From contig NZ_CP015455.1 of assembly GCF_001888165.1 (NCBI RefSeq), forward strand, positions 2,536,001 through 2,600,000: 64,000 nucleotides of DNA. Direction: 5' to 3'. The stretch's first letter is position 1, and each line of letters opens with the position of its first letter. The notes beneath the pieces are model-generated. The model searched no databases. It worked only from the letters and a program-made list of their open reading frames with translations, and had not been told where the DNA came from. Source of the stretch: Syntrophotalea acetylenica. Lineage in GTDB: Bacteria; Desulfobacterota; Desulfuromonadia; Desulfuromonadales; Syntrophotaleaceae. Of the stretch, positions 16,903-23,369 are shown piece by piece. Made by a program: the position numbers and the translations under genes.

Positions 16903-17047
16903 CAAAAAAATATTCATTCGAGTATTCTTGCGAAAAGGCGGGGAAGATTTTAGAACAACCGGCTTCCCCCTCCCAGACAACACGCACCCCTAACATTACA
17001 TTTATCCGGCATTGGCCGGCAATCTGCACCCAAGAGGGATCCGAAAC

Positions 17048-17836
17048 ATGGCAAAAAAAGAAAAATCCGAGTATATGATTCAAGCGGTATCGCATGCCCT
17101 CGACCTGCTTGAACAATTTCACGGCGACGATGTGGACGAATTGGGCGTTACGGAACTCAGCAAGCGCCTAAGATTACATAAAAACAATGTTTTTCGGCTT
17201 TTGGCGACGCTTGAATCCCGTGGATACATCGAGCAGAACAAGGTTACGGAGAACTATCGCCTGGGGCTTAAATCTCTTGAACTCGGCCAGACTTTCATCA
17301 AAAAGATGGGCCTGCTGCACCAGGCCAAGCCGGTACTCGACAGTATCGTGGAGGCGTGCAACGAAACCGCCTATCTGGCAATTTTCAAGGAAGGCCACAT
17401 CGTCTACCTTGACGTGGTCGAAACACACCTTACGGTGCGCGTCGTCTCCCGCGTAGGCTCCCGCCTGCCGGCATATGCCACCGCCGCCGGCAAAGTGCAC
17501 ATGGCCTACATGTCGGAAGAAGAACTGGACAACCTGCTGCCCACGGAAGAACTAAAGGCCTATACCGAATACACCATCACCGACCGCGGCAAGCTCAAGG
17601 AAAACCTCAAGGAGGTCACGGAAAAAGGCTATGCTCTCGACAACGAGGAACTCGACCTCGGAGTCCGCTGCGTAGCCGCGCCTATTCGTGACTACACCCG
17701 CAGGATCATCGGTTCATTGAGCATTTCCGGACCGTCCATCCGGTTTACCGACGAACGTATCCAGGAAGAACTCATGCCTCTGGTGGTCAAGGCTGCTGAC
17801 GAACTCTCCACCCGCCTGGGTTTTCATAAAAGCTGA
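17048..17836 (+). CDS. IclR-family transcriptional regulator
   Basis: A 262-residue regulator with an N-terminal winged helix-turn-helix (about 10-75: ALDLLEQFHGDD..VTELSKRLRLHKNNVFRLLATLESRGYIEQ) and the C-terminal IclR effector domain (RVGSRLPAYATAAGKVHMAY and RCVAAPIRDYTRRIIGSLSISGP). Such proteins bind a small acid or aromatic ligand. The ligand and target are not evident, because neighbours are housekeeping genes. GAGGGA nine bases upstream supports ATG 17048. A strong separate promoter and a downstream hairpin make it a single-gene unit. Confidence 0.93.
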   Translation: MAKKEKSEYMIQAVSHALDLLEQFHGDDVDELGVTELSKRLRLHKNNVFRLLATLESRGYIEQNKVTENYRLGLKSLELGQTFIKKMGLLHQAKPVLDSIVEACNETAYLAIFKEGHIVYLDVVETHLTVRVVSRVGSRLPAYATAAGKVHMAYMSEEELDNLLPTEELKAYTEYTITDRGKLKENLKEVTEKGYALDNEELDLGVRCVAAPIRDYTRRIIGSLSISGPSIRFTDERIQEELMPLVVKAADELSTRLGFHKS

Positions 17837-17872
17837 AAACTACCGCCAACCGTACCACCGGAACATATGCCA

Positions 17873-17897
17873 GCAGCCCGAAAATGTTCCGGGCTGC
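17873..17897 (+). terminator. Hairpin downstream of the IclR gene
   Basis: Perfect eight-base arms GCAGCCCG and CGGGCTGC flank a nine-base loop. There is no immediate T tract (a T5 run comes 14 bases later), so it is a possible but non-canonical terminator. Confidence 0.4.
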
Positions 17898-17969
17898 ACC
17901 ATATAGAGCCGTTTTTCACGTTGCGTAATGTAACAGGGGAAACGGCTCATCGCTTTTTGCGGAGCAAGC

Positions 17970-18776
17970 ATGACACGCGGGAAAAAAAATGCACCGGGTT
18001 GCCCCCAGCCCATCGCAGAAAACCAGGCATTTCAGCTGCGCCCGGCACAATCAGGCAAACCGGGCGTGCTGCTGATACACGGTTTTACCGCCTCCCCCTG
18101 GGAAATGCGCCCCCTGGCAGAGCATCTGTGCGGGTCCGGGTACCATGTCGCTGCCGTCCGCCTGCCGGGACATGGCACCAGCCCCGAAGACCTCTGCCGG
18201 CGCCGCTGTGAGGAATGGATCGCGGCAGCCCGCGAAACTCTCGACATCCTGGGCAGAGAAGTTGGTCAGGTCCACGCTATGGGTTTGAGCACCGGAGCCC
18301 TGGTTTGCCTGGCGCTGGCCGCCGAGAGGGAGCTATGCAGCATGGTCCTGCTGTCGCCTTTTCTGGCCATGCAGCACCGGCTTGCGCCTCTAACCGGCCT
18401 GCTGCGATATTTCCGCTCTTACCAGCACCGCGAGCTGCCCGATCATCTCTCTCCATATTATTACGACCGCCGCCCCCTGAACGGCATCTATCAGATCTGC
18501 CGACTGATCGGCAAAATCAAACCGCTCCTGCCCCGCATAACCACGCCGACCCTGGCGATCAACGCCCTTGGCGACCGCACGGTCCGCGCTGAAAGTGGCT
18601 ACGCCCTGTTTCAGCGACTGTCCAGCCCTTGCCGGGAATACCACATGTTCGGCCCCGGGACCGGGCATGGCCTGGCCGCCCCCGACCAGCCATCCTGGCA
18701 AGCCATGCTGGACCTCATTCTGCGTTTTCTGGCCGCACTGGACCCTCCCCGGCCATTGAAACCAGGCGCGCCATAA
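17970..18776 (+). CDS. Alpha/beta hydrolase (Est30-like carboxylesterase)
   Basis: A 268-residue alpha/beta hydrolase. VLLIHGFTASPWEM provides the oxyanion hole, MGLSTGA the nucleophile elbow (Ser107), ALGDRTV the likely acid, and GTGHGL the catalytic His. The short cap and size match Est30-type carboxylesterases or monoacylglycerol lipases. No signal peptide is present, so it is cytoplasmic. The physiological ester is unknown. GGAG six bases before ATG 17970 supports the start. Its 3' end overlaps the convergent coaE by 62 bases. Confidence 0.87.
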   Translation: MTRGKKNAPGCPQPIAENQAFQLRPAQSGKPGVLLIHGFTASPWEMRPLAEHLCGSGYHVAAVRLPGHGTSPEDLCRRRCEEWIAAARETLDILGREVGQVHAMGLSTGALVCLALAAERELCSMVLLSPFLAMQHRLAPLTGLLRYFRSYQHRELPDHLSPYYYDRRPLNGIYQICRLIGKIKPLLPRITTPTLAINALGDRTVRAESGYALFQRLSSPCREYHMFGPGTGHGLAAPDQPSWQAMLDLILRFLAALDPPRPLKPGAP

Positions 18777-19347
18777 GTAGCACCACCTGGCGACGGGTTT
18801 GTGCCAGGGTGCCGTTGTTATCGATGACATAGTCAGCACGGCGAATCTTTTCCGGCAGGGGCATCTGGGAGGCGATGCGCGCGCGCGCGGCGGCTTCGTC
18901 CAGATGATCGCGGGCCATCAGGCGCTGCAACTGAATATCTTCCCTGACTGCGACGACCGCCACGGCGTCGACCTGTTTGTCGGCGCCAGCTTCAAACAAC
19001 AACGGCGCATCATAGATGACAATCCGAGCGCCGTGTTCCGCCAGTTCGGCAAACCGCTGACGGGCCAGTTCGGCGATGGCGGGATGGGTTATGCGATCAA
19101 GGTCACGGCGCGCCCGGGAATCGGAAAAAATCGTTTGCGCCAGCCAGGACCGATTCAAGGATCCGTCCGCGCAAAGCACCGCGTCGCCGAAACGCTCAAC
19201 AAGACAAACCAGAACAGGCGCACCGGGTGTGACAATCTCCCGAGCCAGGCCATCGGCACCGACCACGTCAGCCCCCAACTCCCGAAACATCTTTGCCACA
19301 ACACTCTTGCCACTGCCAATGCCGCCAGTCAAACCCAGAATCATCAT
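18715..19347 (-). CDS. coaE: Dephospho-CoA kinase
   Basis: A 210-residue P-loop kinase performing the last step of coenzyme A synthesis. The Walker A motif GLTGGIGSGKS lies at the N-terminus, followed by the family's DADxLAR-like segment (VVGADGLAREIV), LIYDAPLLFE-type motif (VIYDAPLLFEAG) and the LID R residues (QLQRLMARD). AAGGAG just upstream supports the first of two adjacent ATGs. It converges on the hydrolase gene with a 62-base overlap; the C-terminal 20 residues are the least conserved part. Confidence 0.95.
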   Translation of the reverse strand: MMILGLTGGIGSGKSVVAKMFRELGADVVGADGLAREIVTPGAPVLVCLVERFGDAVLCADGSLNRSWLAQTIFSDSRARRDLDRITHPAIAELARQRFAELAEHGARIVIYDAPLLFEAGADKQVDAVAVVAVREDIQLQRLMARDHLDEAAARARIASQMPLPEKIRRADYVIDNNGTLAQTRRQVVLLMARLVSMAGEGPVRPENAE

Positions 19348-19547
19348 GGCAACTCCTTTCAGACCGCCTCTTGCCTACCGCCCGCCGATGGCCTATTTTG
19401 CCCGACACAAAAGCTATTTACAACCACCGCACGAAACGCTAAGGTAAAGATTCAATTAAAAAACACAAGTTTTTCTGGAAACGGCCCCGTGACCACAGAA
19501 AGCCCCCCCAACAATCTCTGGACCTGGCGCTGGCAGCCCTGACCCGC

Positions 19548-21113
19548 TTGATCAAATTGATCAAGGCGGTACGTTTCTACCCACCCGAGCACCCGACCCT
19601 CAAACTGGTTGGAGACGAAACACTGGAAGCATTTCGGCCCTTGCTGCAAAACGGCAACCTTGCGGTAACGGTGCGAAAGGACGGGATTCTGCACCAGGGC
19701 GAAACAATCGGGCGCTCCCACGGGGGAATCCGCAGCCTGGCGCACTTTCTGTTTGCCAGGCGCATCCAACAACTGCTATTCCTGCCCGAACTGACGGTCA
19801 GGGACCTGATGGTGTTTTCCCGGAATGTGGTTCGCAAAACCTCTGACATTCAGCAGCAGGGCGGCCTGCAGGAAGCGCTGCTGGCGGAACAGGCCACAGG
19901 CATATGGATCAACGAGATCGACCTGTCCGTCATACGCGACGTCAAACAGCGGCTGCAACAGCGGGAAGAGGCCCTTTCGGCCGGCAGCGAAGAAACTTCC
20001 GAATCGGAGAACAAAAGCGACAACCCGATGCTGCATCAGGAAGGTATAGCAACTGAAGCATGCCAGGAAACTGCCTTCGACAAACACCTGCTCGACCAGT
20101 TATCTCTGGAACAGGTCCTCGTCCAGCTTCCCCGGGAAGCCTCGGAAAACCGTTTCCGGCAACTGCTCGGCGTGCTTCCGGACCTGGTGCGCCGGCAGCT
20201 TGTCAATAAGGATCTGACTCTGGTTCTGCAGACCTATCGAACACTTGCCGGACTACACGGCAACCGGCGAATCAACCAGTCCCGGCGAAGTGAAATCATC
20301 AAGTGTCTGGACCTGCTGACCCGACCCGACATCATCGCCTTTTTGATCGAAGCCCTGTGCAACCGTACCTCGGCAAAGAATCTGCGGTTGCAAACCATGC
20401 AAACGCTCATATTCTTGCGCTACAGAACCATCCTGCCACTGATCGAGCGACTGACAGAAGAAAATGATCCGCTGGCACGCAAATTCCTGTCGACAGCATT
20501 GGTGGAGATCGGCACTCCCGCCGTACCCGACCTGCTCAGGATCATGACGGACGAGCGCTGGTATGTGATCCGCAATATCGTCGCCATTCTGGGGCAGATC
20601 GGAAGTCAGCACGCCGTGCCCTATTTAAAGCCCCTGCTGTGGCACAAGGATCTGCGCATTGCTCGGGAATCGGTCCGGGCTCTTGCGCGAATCGGAGGCG
20701 CGCAGGCGCTCGAAGCCCTGCTGCAACTGATTGACAGCGGGCAGCAAGACCTTTATCCTCAAGCCATCATTGCCCTGGGCATCATGCGCGATCCGATGGC
20801 CGTATCAAAGCTGGTCGGGATCATGACATGCCGCGATCCATTTCGGAAAAAAACCGAAATGAAAATTGCAGCCATAAAAGCGCTGGGCCGCATCGGTTGC
20901 ATCGATGCGGCCCCCGACCTGGAACGCATGGCGAAGCGCCGGTTTTTCTGGAGCGACAGACGGCGCGCCGCGCTGCGTATTCAGGCCATCGCTGCACTCG
21001 GCCAGATCCGCGCTCCTGCTTCACGTCCGGTATTGGAAACCATCAGCCAGGAGCGCGATCAGCGTATCGCCCAATGCGCGGCAAGAACACTGAAACTGTG
21101 GCCGGACCGATAA
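19548..21113 (+). CDS. HEAT-repeat protein with an N-terminal domain shared with the downstream HD-GYP protein
   Basis: About 521 residues. The N-terminal part (KAVRFYPPEHPTLKLV, a predicted beta region near 40-60, then SLAHFLFARRIQQLLFLP) aligns by eye with the start of the next gene product. After a low-complexity Glu/Ser linker (about 145-180) comes an array of HEAT/PBS-type helical repeats to the C-terminus. Such scaffolds bind proteins; no enzyme motif is visible. The start is uncertain. TTG 19548 falls inside the conserved helix, the frame is open back to 19443, and GTG 19489 would give a natural start if the C7 run at 19503-19509 were one base longer. It abuts the HD-GYP gene with one base between. 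Confidence 0.75.
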   Translation: MIKLIKAVRFYPPEHPTLKLVGDETLEAFRPLLQNGNLAVTVRKDGILHQGETIGRSHGGIRSLAHFLFARRIQQLLFLPELTVRDLMVFSRNVVRKTSDIQQQGGLQEALLAEQATGIWINEIDLSVIRDVKQRLQQREEALSAGSEETSESENKSDNPMLHQEGIATEACQETAFDKHLLDQLSLEQVLVQLPREASENRFRQLLGVLPDLVRRQLVNKDLTLVLQTYRTLAGLHGNRRINQSRRSEIIKCLDLLTRPDIIAFLIEALCNRTSAKNLRLQTMQTLIFLRYRTILPLIERLTEENDPLARKFLSTALVEIGTPAVPDLLRIMTDERWYVIRNIVAILGQIGSQHAVPYLKPLLWHKDLRIARESVRALARIGGAQALEALLQLIDSGQQDLYPQAIIALGIMRDPMAVSKLVGIMTCRDPFRKKTEMKIAAIKALGRIGCIDAAPDLERMAKRRFFWSDRRRAALRIQAIAALGQIRAPASRPVLETISQERDQRIAQCAARTLKLWPDR

Positions 21114-21114
21114 C

Positions 21115-22446
21115 ATGCATCTTGATCCCCTGAAACAACTCGCCAACAATCTGTCCGGCGCACTCAAAGGGCTGCGCCTTTACCCTGTCGAACATCCGAT
21201 CATCCAGAAACAGCTGCGCGAAACAGCGCGCGCAGCGGGCACCCTTTTACAGGAACATGAACATCTGCGCATCGGCGTTCTGCAGGACACCCTGTTTATC
21301 AACGACCACCTGTTTGCCGATCCGCATCCTGCCGCGGAGAGCTTGTGCCGCCTGTTTCAGGAAAAGCAGCTTGCCGGGCTGGAGTTTCTGAAGGGCATTC
21401 CAGAACTTGAGTTCCGGCATTTTCTGCAGTTCATGAACAGCCCGGCTCTGGGCCAGGAAGATTTTCAGGCACTGTTCGACAAACACCAGGTGCGCCATAT
21501 CCGGTTTCTCCCGGATGAAGCCGAGGAGGACGATGACCGCCAATCCGCGCGCAAAATCTTCGGCCGGGCGCTGAAGGTGGTCAACACTATTTTCAAGGAT
21601 GTGCGCATGGGCCGCATTCCGTCCTCGGCTGAAGCTCACAAAGTCGTCAAAGACATGGCCCGCATGACCCTGGCCGACCCCCATGCACTGCTGGCTTTGA
21701 GTCTTCTGAAAAATTACGATAATTATACCTTCACCCACTCTGTGAACGTGTCCGTCCTTGCTCTGGCCATCGGCAGGGCAGCCGGTTTACAGGAAGAACA
21801 ACTGCGCATTCTTGGCATCGGCAGCCTGCTGCACGATATCGGCAAACTTAAAATCGATATATCGATCATCAATAAACCGGGCAGGCTTTCTGAAAGCGAA
21901 TTTGCCGAAATCCGCAAACATCCACGCATCGGAGCCGATATAATTCAGCAAATGGGGGATGTGATCGAAGCGGCAATCGCCATTGTCCTTGGGCACCACC
22001 TGCACTTCGACCGCAAAGGCTATCCCGGCGATGTCACAATCAGCGGATCCTACGACCTGATCGACATGACCACCATCGCCGACAGCTATGACGCCATCAC
22101 CACCCTGCGCCCCTATCAGCGTCCCACCACCCCGCGCGAAGCCATCAGGCATCTGATGAAAGAATCCGGAACCATGCTGCATCCGGACTATCTGAAAAAG
22201 TTCGTCGCCTCCCTCGGCACGTACCCGGTCGGAACCCTGGTGCGCCTCGACAGCAACGAAATCGGAGTCGTTGGCCGCGTCGGCACCGACAACCCCGATT
22301 GCGTCCAGGTGAAAATTCTGTTCGACGGCGCAGGTGCGCAGCTGAATCAACCGAGGTTGATCAACCTTGCCGCGGACGAAAAAAAACGGATCGTTTCCGA
22401 AGTCGATCCGTTCCTCAAGGGCGTCGATGTCGTCGACTACCTGTAG
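21115..22446 (+). CDS. HD-GYP domain phosphodiesterase-like protein
   Basis: 443 residues. Residues 1-130 form the domain shared with the upstream gene (GLRLYPVEHPIIQKQL, LRIGVLQDTLFIND, LAGLEFLKGI). Residues about 185-375 are an HD-GYP domain with His208, the HD pair His240-Asp241 in LLHDIGK, His269, HH at 294-295 and GYP at 302-304 (HHLHFDRKGYPG). The canonical HHExxDGxGYP is altered to HHLHFDRKGYP. Family members hydrolyse cyclic di-GMP or cGAMP using a di- or tri-iron site. The metal ligands look largely kept, so activity is plausible but unproven. A C-terminal segment of about 65 residues resembles the usual HD-GYP tail. Confidence 0.88.
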   Translation: MHLDPLKQLANNLSGALKGLRLYPVEHPIIQKQLRETARAAGTLLQEHEHLRIGVLQDTLFINDHLFADPHPAAESLCRLFQEKQLAGLEFLKGIPELEFRHFLQFMNSPALGQEDFQALFDKHQVRHIRFLPDEAEEDDDRQSARKIFGRALKVVNTIFKDVRMGRIPSSAEAHKVVKDMARMTLADPHALLALSLLKNYDNYTFTHSVNVSVLALAIGRAAGLQEEQLRILGIGSLLHDIGKLKIDISIINKPGRLSESEFAEIRKHPRIGADIIQQMGDVIEAAIAIVLGHHLHFDRKGYPGDVTISGSYDLIDMTTIADSYDAITTLRPYQRPTTPREAIRHLMKESGTMLHPDYLKKFVASLGTYPVGTLVRLDSNEIGVVGRVGTDNPDCVQVKILFDGAGAQLNQPRLINLAADEKKRIVSEVDPFLKGVDVVDYL

Positions 22447-22482
22447 TGCGCAATGGCCAGATTCAAGGTCAAGGCTCAACCT

Positions 22483-23067
22483 TCAGCCGTAACCGGCGCC
22501 GCCCCCCCCCAAACAGCCCAGAACCTTCATGGCAGTACATCTTACCCGGGTTCTGCTGTCGTCCGCCAGGCGCAGCACGGCGCCTTCGGCTTCGGCAAAA
22601 CCGATTCGTGCCAGCGACTCCAGCGCCGCAACAACCAGCTCCTCGTCTTCATCCGCGAGCGCGGTCGACAGACAGGGCACAAGGCGGCGATCACAGAAAT
22701 TTCCCAGAGCGGTTGCGGCATGCACCCTCACCGCCGGGTGTGGATCCTTGAGATGACGCACAAGAAATTCCAGCACCTTGATATGCCTTTTTTCACCAAG
22801 CACCTGAATAGCTGCGCAGCGCAGGTCGGCATCGGCGACCCTGAGCGCCGCCAGCAAAGGCGGAAAAACCTTCGGACTGTGGATTTTTTCAAGCGCGAAA
22901 ATAGCCCGCACCTGCTGGCCACGATTCCCGGCCCTGAGAACCTGAAGGATATCATCCAGGCTCTGCACCGCTTCCAGGCGCTCCAATGCCTCGGCCGCCG
23001 CCACCCGGACCTCCTCATCCTTGTCGCGCAACGCTTCCTGCAAAACCTGTCGCCGGCGTTCCAGCAT
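22483..23067 (-). CDS. Small HEAT-repeat protein
   Basis: About 194 residues made almost wholly of five or six HEAT/PBS-lyase repeats of about 31 residues (EALRDKDEEVRVAAAEALERL, ALRVADADLRCAAIQVLGE, HLKDPHPAVRVHAATALGN, ALADEDEELVVAALESLAR, with length differences). It is probably a protein-binding scaffold. It faces the HEAT/HD-GYP pair across 36 bases. ATG 23067 has AGGTG seven bases upstream; ATG 23073 is too close. The C-terminus ends in GCLGGGGAGYG produced by a C9 run (22502-22510). If that run length is wrong or variable, the tail changes. Confidence 0.72.
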   Translation of the reverse strand: MLERRRQVLQEALRDKDEEVRVAAAEALERLEAVQSLDDILQVLRAGNRGQQVRAIFALEKIHSPKVFPPLLAALRVADADLRCAAIQVLGEKRHIKVLEFLVRHLKDPHPAVRVHAATALGNFCDRRLVPCLSTALADEDEELVVAALESLARIGFAEAEGAVLRLADDSRTRVRCTAMKVLGCLGGGGAGYG

Positions 23068-23369
23068 CACCATTCACCTTTTCTGGTTATCACGGCATGG
23101 TGCGAAACCGATCGGCCCCCTCCACCTGACGGCAGATAATCACGCATGCCCGAAATAGAGTCAGCATAAAACAATTCCGAAAAACGTAGCAGAAAAGCTC
23201 CCGGCAAACAACGCCCCAGAATAAAAACATCGTTTTATCTCTTCGGGAAGTCTGCCATAATGGCCGAAAAGCCAGGCCGCAGCACGGAAAAACCGCACAC
23301 GAAAGAGAACCTTTCCTATTTCAGGGCGCACACCGTATACAATAAATTGTCCGCAACGCAACGTATTGG
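23068..23369. other. Intergenic region upstream of nfnA
   Basis: About 300 bases between the divergent small HEAT gene and the nfnA promoter. It is slightly AT-richer than the flanks. I see no RNA gene, repeat or convincing small protein in it. Confidence 0.4.

Follow-up and report, generated by a model that had tools for sequence, protein, structure and literature searches.

The Syntrophotalea acetylenica genome carries, within a 64-kb stretch (the window; positions given below are window positions, equal to genome positions minus 2536000), a gene for a HEAT-repeat protein followed on the plus strand by a gene for an HD-GYP protein. The HEAT gene is listed as an open reading frame (ORF) of 521 aa at 19548..21113 (Pfam HEAT_2 1.3e-27, HEAT_PBS 3.1e-15), and the HD-GYP gene starts one base after its stop codon (21115..22446, plus strand, 443 aa; Pfam HD_5 9.2e-15, HD 5.6e-13). 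The two proteins open with a homologous domain of ~125 residues, here called the N-domain, which lies on the plus strand at 19518..19925 in the HEAT protein (alignment A4) and at 21136..21504 in the HD-GYP protein (profile match in its own genome, alignment A3). The HD-GYP catalytic domain, residues 197-353 as set by the HD_5 range and holding the metal ligands, spans 21703..22173 on the same strand, and within it an altered HHx..GYP loop (H294 H295 L296 ... G302 Y303 P304, 21994..22026, plus strand) has Leu where Glu is usual. Convergent with this pair is a third gene (22483..23073, minus strand) for a small, all-HEAT protein of 196 aa (HEAT_2 5.7e-29), facing the pair as an earlier note on this DNA had described. 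HEAT_2 scores of 96.3 and 100.7 bits in the HEAT-repeat proteins are far above the curated cut-off of 27.7.

An unnamed domain shared by both proteins

The earlier note had also proposed, from the sequence alone, that the HEAT and HD-GYP proteins share their N-terminal domain, and this is confirmed. The two N-domains align with a Smith-Waterman score of 89, which none of 2000 shuffles reached (shuffled mean 28.9, maximum 61); as single comparisons phmmer gave 1.3e-8 and blastp 2e-8, and profile-profile comparison with hhalign gave 98.3%, E 1.4e-14 over 127 columns. Both contain a Y-P-x-x-H-P motif, whose Y is invariant in alignments A1, A3, A4 and A5, and the predicted order of secondary structure agrees between them: two helices, two strands, a helix, a strand, two to three helices and a strand. 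AlphaFold modelled the HEAT N-domain, using 76 aligned domains, with pLDDT 97.1 and pTM 0.91, and the whole HD-GYP protein with pLDDT 87.6 and pTM 0.67.

No Pfam or NCBIfam family explains this domain, which the earlier note could not name either. Among the 76 members of A5 there was no convincing Pfam match (best E 0.0047, in one member, among 25 of 32 families listed) and no convincing NCBIfam match (best E 0.0075, in one member, 18 of 18 families). Foldseek returned no PDB chain at E<=0.001 for the fold, and VIA-align none at Z 8 for the N-domain alone, the best being Z 6.0 over 46 residues that cover only the first helices; the VIA-align null should not be taken as proof of a new fold. DUF3391, an N-terminal domain of some HD-GYP proteins, was considered and rejected, for it scored 16.1 bits, below the Pfam cut-off of 27.8, and its match, at residues 135-169, falls entirely outside the N-domain. 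Profile matches to PDB entries, among them a cytochrome trimer and Octarellin, which we take from its name to be a designed protein, covered short stretches only and were judged to be chance. To judge from these searches, the N-domain is unnamed in Pfam and NCBIfam, and it is widespread.

The top Foldseek rows for the N-domain were PelD (E 0.048, probability 0.20) and then mostly GAF/phytochrome chains, all weak. These rows favour a reading in which the N-domain is a sensor of a small molecule or of cell state in both proteins, which would then have parallel outputs, phosphodiesterase on one side and protein binding on the other, and form no complex. The position of the N-domain, at the usual place of a sensor domain, is as this reading would have it, whereas the lack of a significant Foldseek match tells against it. 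We regard a sensor of this kind as unlikely.

The active site of the HD-GYP protein

The catalytic domain is well supported by Pfam (HD_5 55.2 bits, cut-off 27.2; HD 49.6 bits, cut-off 22), and its ligands were mapped by alignment to PmGH (4mcw), the ligands being named in PMC4159591. All seven metal ligands (H208, H240, D241, H269, H294, H295 and D323) are kept in 85 of 85 HD-GYP proteins with an N-domain. The position of PmGH E185 is Tyr204 in the window and Y in 76 of the 85, so that the Glu/Asp expected of the trinuclear E/D-T-G subgroup is missing; the seven ligands are common to binuclear and trinuclear HD-GYPs, and the Y/F subgroup is expected to be binuclear (PMC4159591). On the basis of its residues the window HD-GYP is a member of the Y/F subgroup and is predicted to be binuclear. 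Also largely kept (D202 in 80 of 85, K244 in 82 of 85) is an Asp/Lys pair without which PmGH was inactive (PMC4159591).

The Glu of the HHExxDGxGYP motif is present in 64 of 65 HD-GYPs without an N-domain, taken as one per locus from 65 such loci, and in none of the 85 with one, where L (44), M (18), I (10), A (6) and other residues replace it; this column is the most divergent among the 176 positions compared between the two groups. These counts come from the aligned column, a regular expression giving 20 'H' for the comparators owing to HHHE. GYP itself is present in the window, and the Gly after the Asp is changed in most of the 85 (R 35, L 22, G 14). The GYP region is described as lying on the protein surface, where partners can reach it (PMC3774798), from which we would go no further than a reasonable guess that the changed loop serves in docking a partner or in gating.

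The replaced Glu could also mean that the protein does not hydrolyze at all, and acts as a receptor that binds a cyclic dinucleotide and alters the conformation of its HEAT partner, in the way that DvhD acts on its output. Replacement in 85 of 85 fits such a receptor, for which DvhD, an HD-GYP receptor reported not to hydrolyze c-di-GMP (cyclic di-GMP; PMC13090378), provides a precedent. A pure receptor would however be expected to lose some of the metal ligands or of the Asp/Lys pair, and here the seven ligands are kept without exception and the pair nearly so; we consider a receptor role improbable, and favor a phosphodiesterase.

Linkage of the pair within and beyond the order

Of 58 genomes searched, counting that of the window, 54 have the HD N-domain. 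All 20 loci retrieved from the same genus, family and order keep the gene order IclR regulator, HEAT, HD-GYP and, on the opposite strand, small HEAT, with the hydrolase, coaE or both between the regulator and the HEAT gene (the ORF picker missed the hydrolase in L035, L047 and L049, and coaE in L046 and L050). Several order genomes also carry a second, paralogous pair elsewhere (L051-L057), in which an N-HEAT frame of 723-805 aa precedes an N-HD-GYP frame of 396-436 aa, except that L054 and L069 differ; the window's own genome has one pair only. The earlier note had looked to the co-occurrence of three genes, which holds for the HEAT/HD-GYP pair and only in part for the small HEAT gene: this accompanies 37 of 85 HD-GYP genes and none of the second pair type, and is a looser, optional companion.

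The loci counted contain 192 distinct proteins with an N-domain, comprising 101 HEAT, 85 HD-GYP and six with another or undetected partner. An N-HEAT gene lies directly upstream of 74 of the 85 HD-GYP proteins, a median of 30 nt separating the end of the HEAT frame from the start of the HD N-domain match; this count comes from loci chosen for a match to the domain or to the HD-GYP query, and thus is not a random sample, and it leaves out L001-L030, which are sub-stretches of or places near other loci. The gene linkage that the earlier note had expected in relatives is therefore present. Seven of the 11 exceptions have other features in view: two are at contig or locus ends (L091, L098), one is a fusion (L208), one has a HEAT gene divided between two ORFs (L050), two have an upstream N-domain ORF without repeats by the HEAT profile (L115, and L077, which has none by Pfam either), and in L069 the N-HEAT gene is past the 400-nt limit. 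In two further loci (L090:6903-8327, L180:1825-3492) an HD-GYP gene stands right after an N-HEAT gene and its own N-domain is below threshold; these are, by their arrangement, apparent pairs in which the N-domain of the enzyme has strongly diverged or been lost.

Within the window's phylum, profile A5 finds the N-domain in 100 of 247 genomes; in other phyla it does so in 30 of 99 genomes of an Acidobacteriota-centred set (Holophagaceae), 21 of 149 of an Actinomycetota-centred set (Nitriliruptoraceae), 18 of 43 of an Armatimonadota-centred set and 41 of 61 of a Gemmatimonadota-centred set, these phyla having been picked because the N-domain or a related HD-GYP was already known from a member. 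Of 12 genomes reached through loci, three gave no N-domain match. The HD-biased profile A3 had yielded only 21 tandem pairs among 140 hits in 88 genomes, and A5 was used afterwards. Pairs were counted with A5 in the Acidobacteriota-, Actinomycetota- and Armatimonadota-centred sets, leaving out the window's phylum and the Gemmatimonadota-centred set. Adjacent N-domain genes make up 42 of 64 hits in the first (21 pairs; 16 of the 30 genomes with matches), 30 of 52 in the second (15 pairs; 13 of 21) and 54 of 60 in the third (28 adjacent steps, including HD-then-HEAT steps between two neighbouring pairs; 14 of 18). An even number of matches in a genome, seen in 30 of 41 and 16 of 18 of those with any match, was dropped as evidence of pairing because unpaired N-HEAT genes also yield even numbers in the Actinomycetota-centred set. 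One match (G602:C95:136246-136536) falls in a reported reading frame 24576 aa long, probably owing to a program limit or an odd contig.

Pairs of N-HEAT followed by N-HD-GYP were read in seven phyla: that of the window, Omnitrophota (L096), Actinomycetota (L203/L204), Armatimonadota (L156, with two pairs side by side), Gemmatimonadota (L166/L173), Acidobacteriota (L209/L210) and Hydrogenedentota (L171, the same genome as L147). The named records are mostly metagenome-assembled genomes, so binning errors are possible in single cases. It might be argued that adjacency is simply left over from a tandem duplication with domain shuffling, held by operon inertia while the proteins act independently, and a duplication did occur, given that the N-domains are homologous. 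Such a remnant would hardly persist in seven phyla, nor would its copies multiply as pairs, and we consider it very improbable.

Divergence of the two domains and their fusions

Distances among HEAT N-domains follow those among HD N-domains (Mantel r 0.83 over 74 pairs, against a permuted maximum of 0.19), to which species descent contributes. On a tree of 199 N-domains, which has few columns and for which bootstrap support is not settled, the HEAT and HD labels require 10 changes, compared with 63.5 when shuffled, and neither label forms one clade. The two N-domain types thus look old and mostly loyal to their own partner, with pairs having apparently multiplied as units. Strict adjacency and co-duplication exceed what a common sensor would need, and such strong sorting by partner suggests that the domain has differing roles in the two proteins; both bear against the parallel sensor considered above.

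The N-domain is also found in fusions. GGDEF-AAA_16-N-N-HEAT proteins occur in L071 and L074 (by Pfam), with L072 and L073 of similar length and the same N-N-HEAT layout, GGDEF-AAA_16-N-HEAT in L075, N-HEAT-cNMP-PilZ in L076 and, as a single frame, N..N-HD in L208. Fusions to GGDEF, to cNMP/PilZ and to HD therefore tie the N-domain to the synthesis, reception and degradation of cyclic dinucleotides. In L183, the sole case with a histidine kinase, the N-domain precedes PAS-HisKA-HATPase, an arrangement that suits a sensor, as do the N-HEAT proteins that occur unpaired. In L190:4602-6239 some 400 residues come after the N-domain, and these show no HEAT or HD match and no Pfam family above cut-off.

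A proposed two-subunit phosphodiesterase

A shared N-domain inherited side by side in two genes points to an undescribed two-part signalling complex. We hypothesize that the HEAT and HD-GYP proteins form a two-subunit cyclic-dinucleotide phosphodiesterase module with HEAT as the regulatory subunit, a proposal to which we give slightly better than even chances. The HD-GYP protein would be a metal-dependent phosphodiesterase of the Y/F subgroup, served by the HEAT protein as a dedicated scaffold or regulatory subunit; through their homologous N-domains the two would join as a hetero-oligomer and relay a signal to each other, while the HEAT solenoid would dock a target or sensor and so localise or gate hydrolysis. 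We infer the physical contact and the N-domain as its site, as well as hydrolysis, substrate, signal and the binding target of HEAT. A signalling complex had been suggested in the earlier note; linkage, co-duplication, matched divergence and cyclic-dinucleotide fusions support it indirectly, and the complex itself we infer. In the genome of the window there are 23 matches to GGDEF and 8 to PilZ, which make c-di-GMP the likeliest substrate. Geobacter is reported to use cGAMP (cyclic GMP-AMP), and a cGAMP-specific role was considered for that reason; the findings do not tell such a role apart, and cGAMP would be the possible but less likely substrate.

Several observations weigh against such a module. 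The lost HHE Glu could mean altered or absent activity, and HD-GYP proteins can be inactive, as reported for Bd1817 (PMC4159591) and DvhD (PMC13090378); the fused protein of L208 has lost GYP. Four HD-GYP proteins with an N-domain appear to stand alone (L058, L059, L060, L123). N-domain hits without an adjacent partner number 18 of 64 in the Acidobacteriota-, 22 of 52 in the Actinomycetota- and 6 of 60 in the Armatimonadota-centred set, and all 11 of 11 unpaired hits read from the first two (L172, L191-L199, L202) are N-HEAT, with no HD-GYP in the stretch. The HEAT protein is thus not solely an HD-GYP subunit, and may be a more general adaptor. Three of the solo genes, in the window's order (L058:3040-4392, L059:3196-4872, L060:4267-5598), are natural controls for the pairing idea.

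It is tempting to extend the proposal to a widespread, undescribed class of two-subunit HD-GYPs, in which an unnamed pairing fold brings in a HEAT regulatory subunit that gates the HH[LMI] loop or shifts the substrate (for example, to something other than c-di-GMP), and in which this fold also connects HEAT scaffolds to proteins of the GGDEF, PilZ and histidine kinase kinds; this is a tentative extension, and we doubt that it holds in full. The usual view of cyclic-dinucleotide enzymes is of single proteins that each carry a sensor domain. If the two-subunit module is real, a conserved partner gene, found in loci from seven phyla, would constitute a regulatory layer unnamed in the family libraries searched, HEAT-repeat genes of hitherto unassigned function would gain a role, and the active-site loop together with the unnamed domain would offer a handle on HD-GYP activity and specificity. 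A pair is present in a Geobacteraceae locus (L092), which makes tests in tractable relatives plausible.

Start of the HEAT gene and its neighbourhood

The HEAT reading frame is open from 19443, and its N-domain begins 5' of the listed TTG at 19548; the true start is therefore probably upstream. A GTG at 19489 has a context like that in the genus relatives L031-L033, which have an in-frame ATG there. The frame that it opens ends in a stop at 19540-19542; following seven consecutive C (19503-19509), it is offset by one base from that of the HEAT protein. The frame break in 19489-19548 may reflect a sequencing error, a slippage tract or an unusual CTG/TTG start.

Upstream are genes that from their sequences appear to encode an IclR-type regulator, an alpha/beta hydrolase and coaE (17012-19347), syntenic across most of the 20 loci; among them the IclR protein shows unusually strong conservation (74-94% identity across fetched loci). 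Only 200 bases separate coaE from the listed HEAT start in the window. An extra gene of ~610 aa, presumably for something like a long-chain acyl-CoA synthetase, lies between the two in L036:6107-7933, L038:10853-12679, L043:6482-8317 and L045:11077-12897. A search for an upstream riboswitch gave one sub-threshold Rfam match (P33, 21.5 of 45 bits, E 0.6). A defence system was considered, and the PADLOC matches were judged to be repeat or HD cross-matches.

Comparison with known HD-GYP systems

Bd1817 of Bdellovibrio (3tm8, 3tmb) is the best structural match of the whole HD-GYP model (Z 20 to 23). Its alignment extends over up to 258 residues and reaches N-domain residues 55-123, so that a distant or truncated relative of the N-domain is possible there; the first two N-domain helices are uncovered, its profile match begins at profile position 119, and it is absent among the VIA-align rows listed for the N-domain alone. 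Bd1817 differs in being reported as inactive, with non-consensus active-site residues. DvhD (9rbz, 9rc0), a c-di-GMP receptor of Desulfovibrio vulgaris, has a similar catalytic domain (Z 18.5) and differs in being a PAS/HD-GYP receptor reported not to hydrolyze c-di-GMP (PMC13090378). PmxA of Myxococcus xanthus, likened here by its published description, is an HD-GYP phosphodiesterase with c-di-GMP activity, and differs in its Cache-TM-HAMP-HD-GYP architecture (PMC4877007).

In the literature searched, where subscription papers were mostly out of reach, we found no description of the HEAT/HD-GYP pair and no assay of it. V-cGAP3 (5z7c), of the Y/F subgroup, shares with the window HD-GYP the HD and GYP motifs and a Tyr at the position of PmGH E185, and PA4781 (4r8z), with a bi-metallic centre according to its PDB title, likewise has HD and GYP motifs. 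The window family differs from both in the replaced HHE Glu (mostly Leu/Met/Ile), in its unnamed N-domain and in the adjoining HEAT gene. HD-GYP signalling is known; what is new here is that it is built around an unnamed, widespread domain with a HEAT partner.

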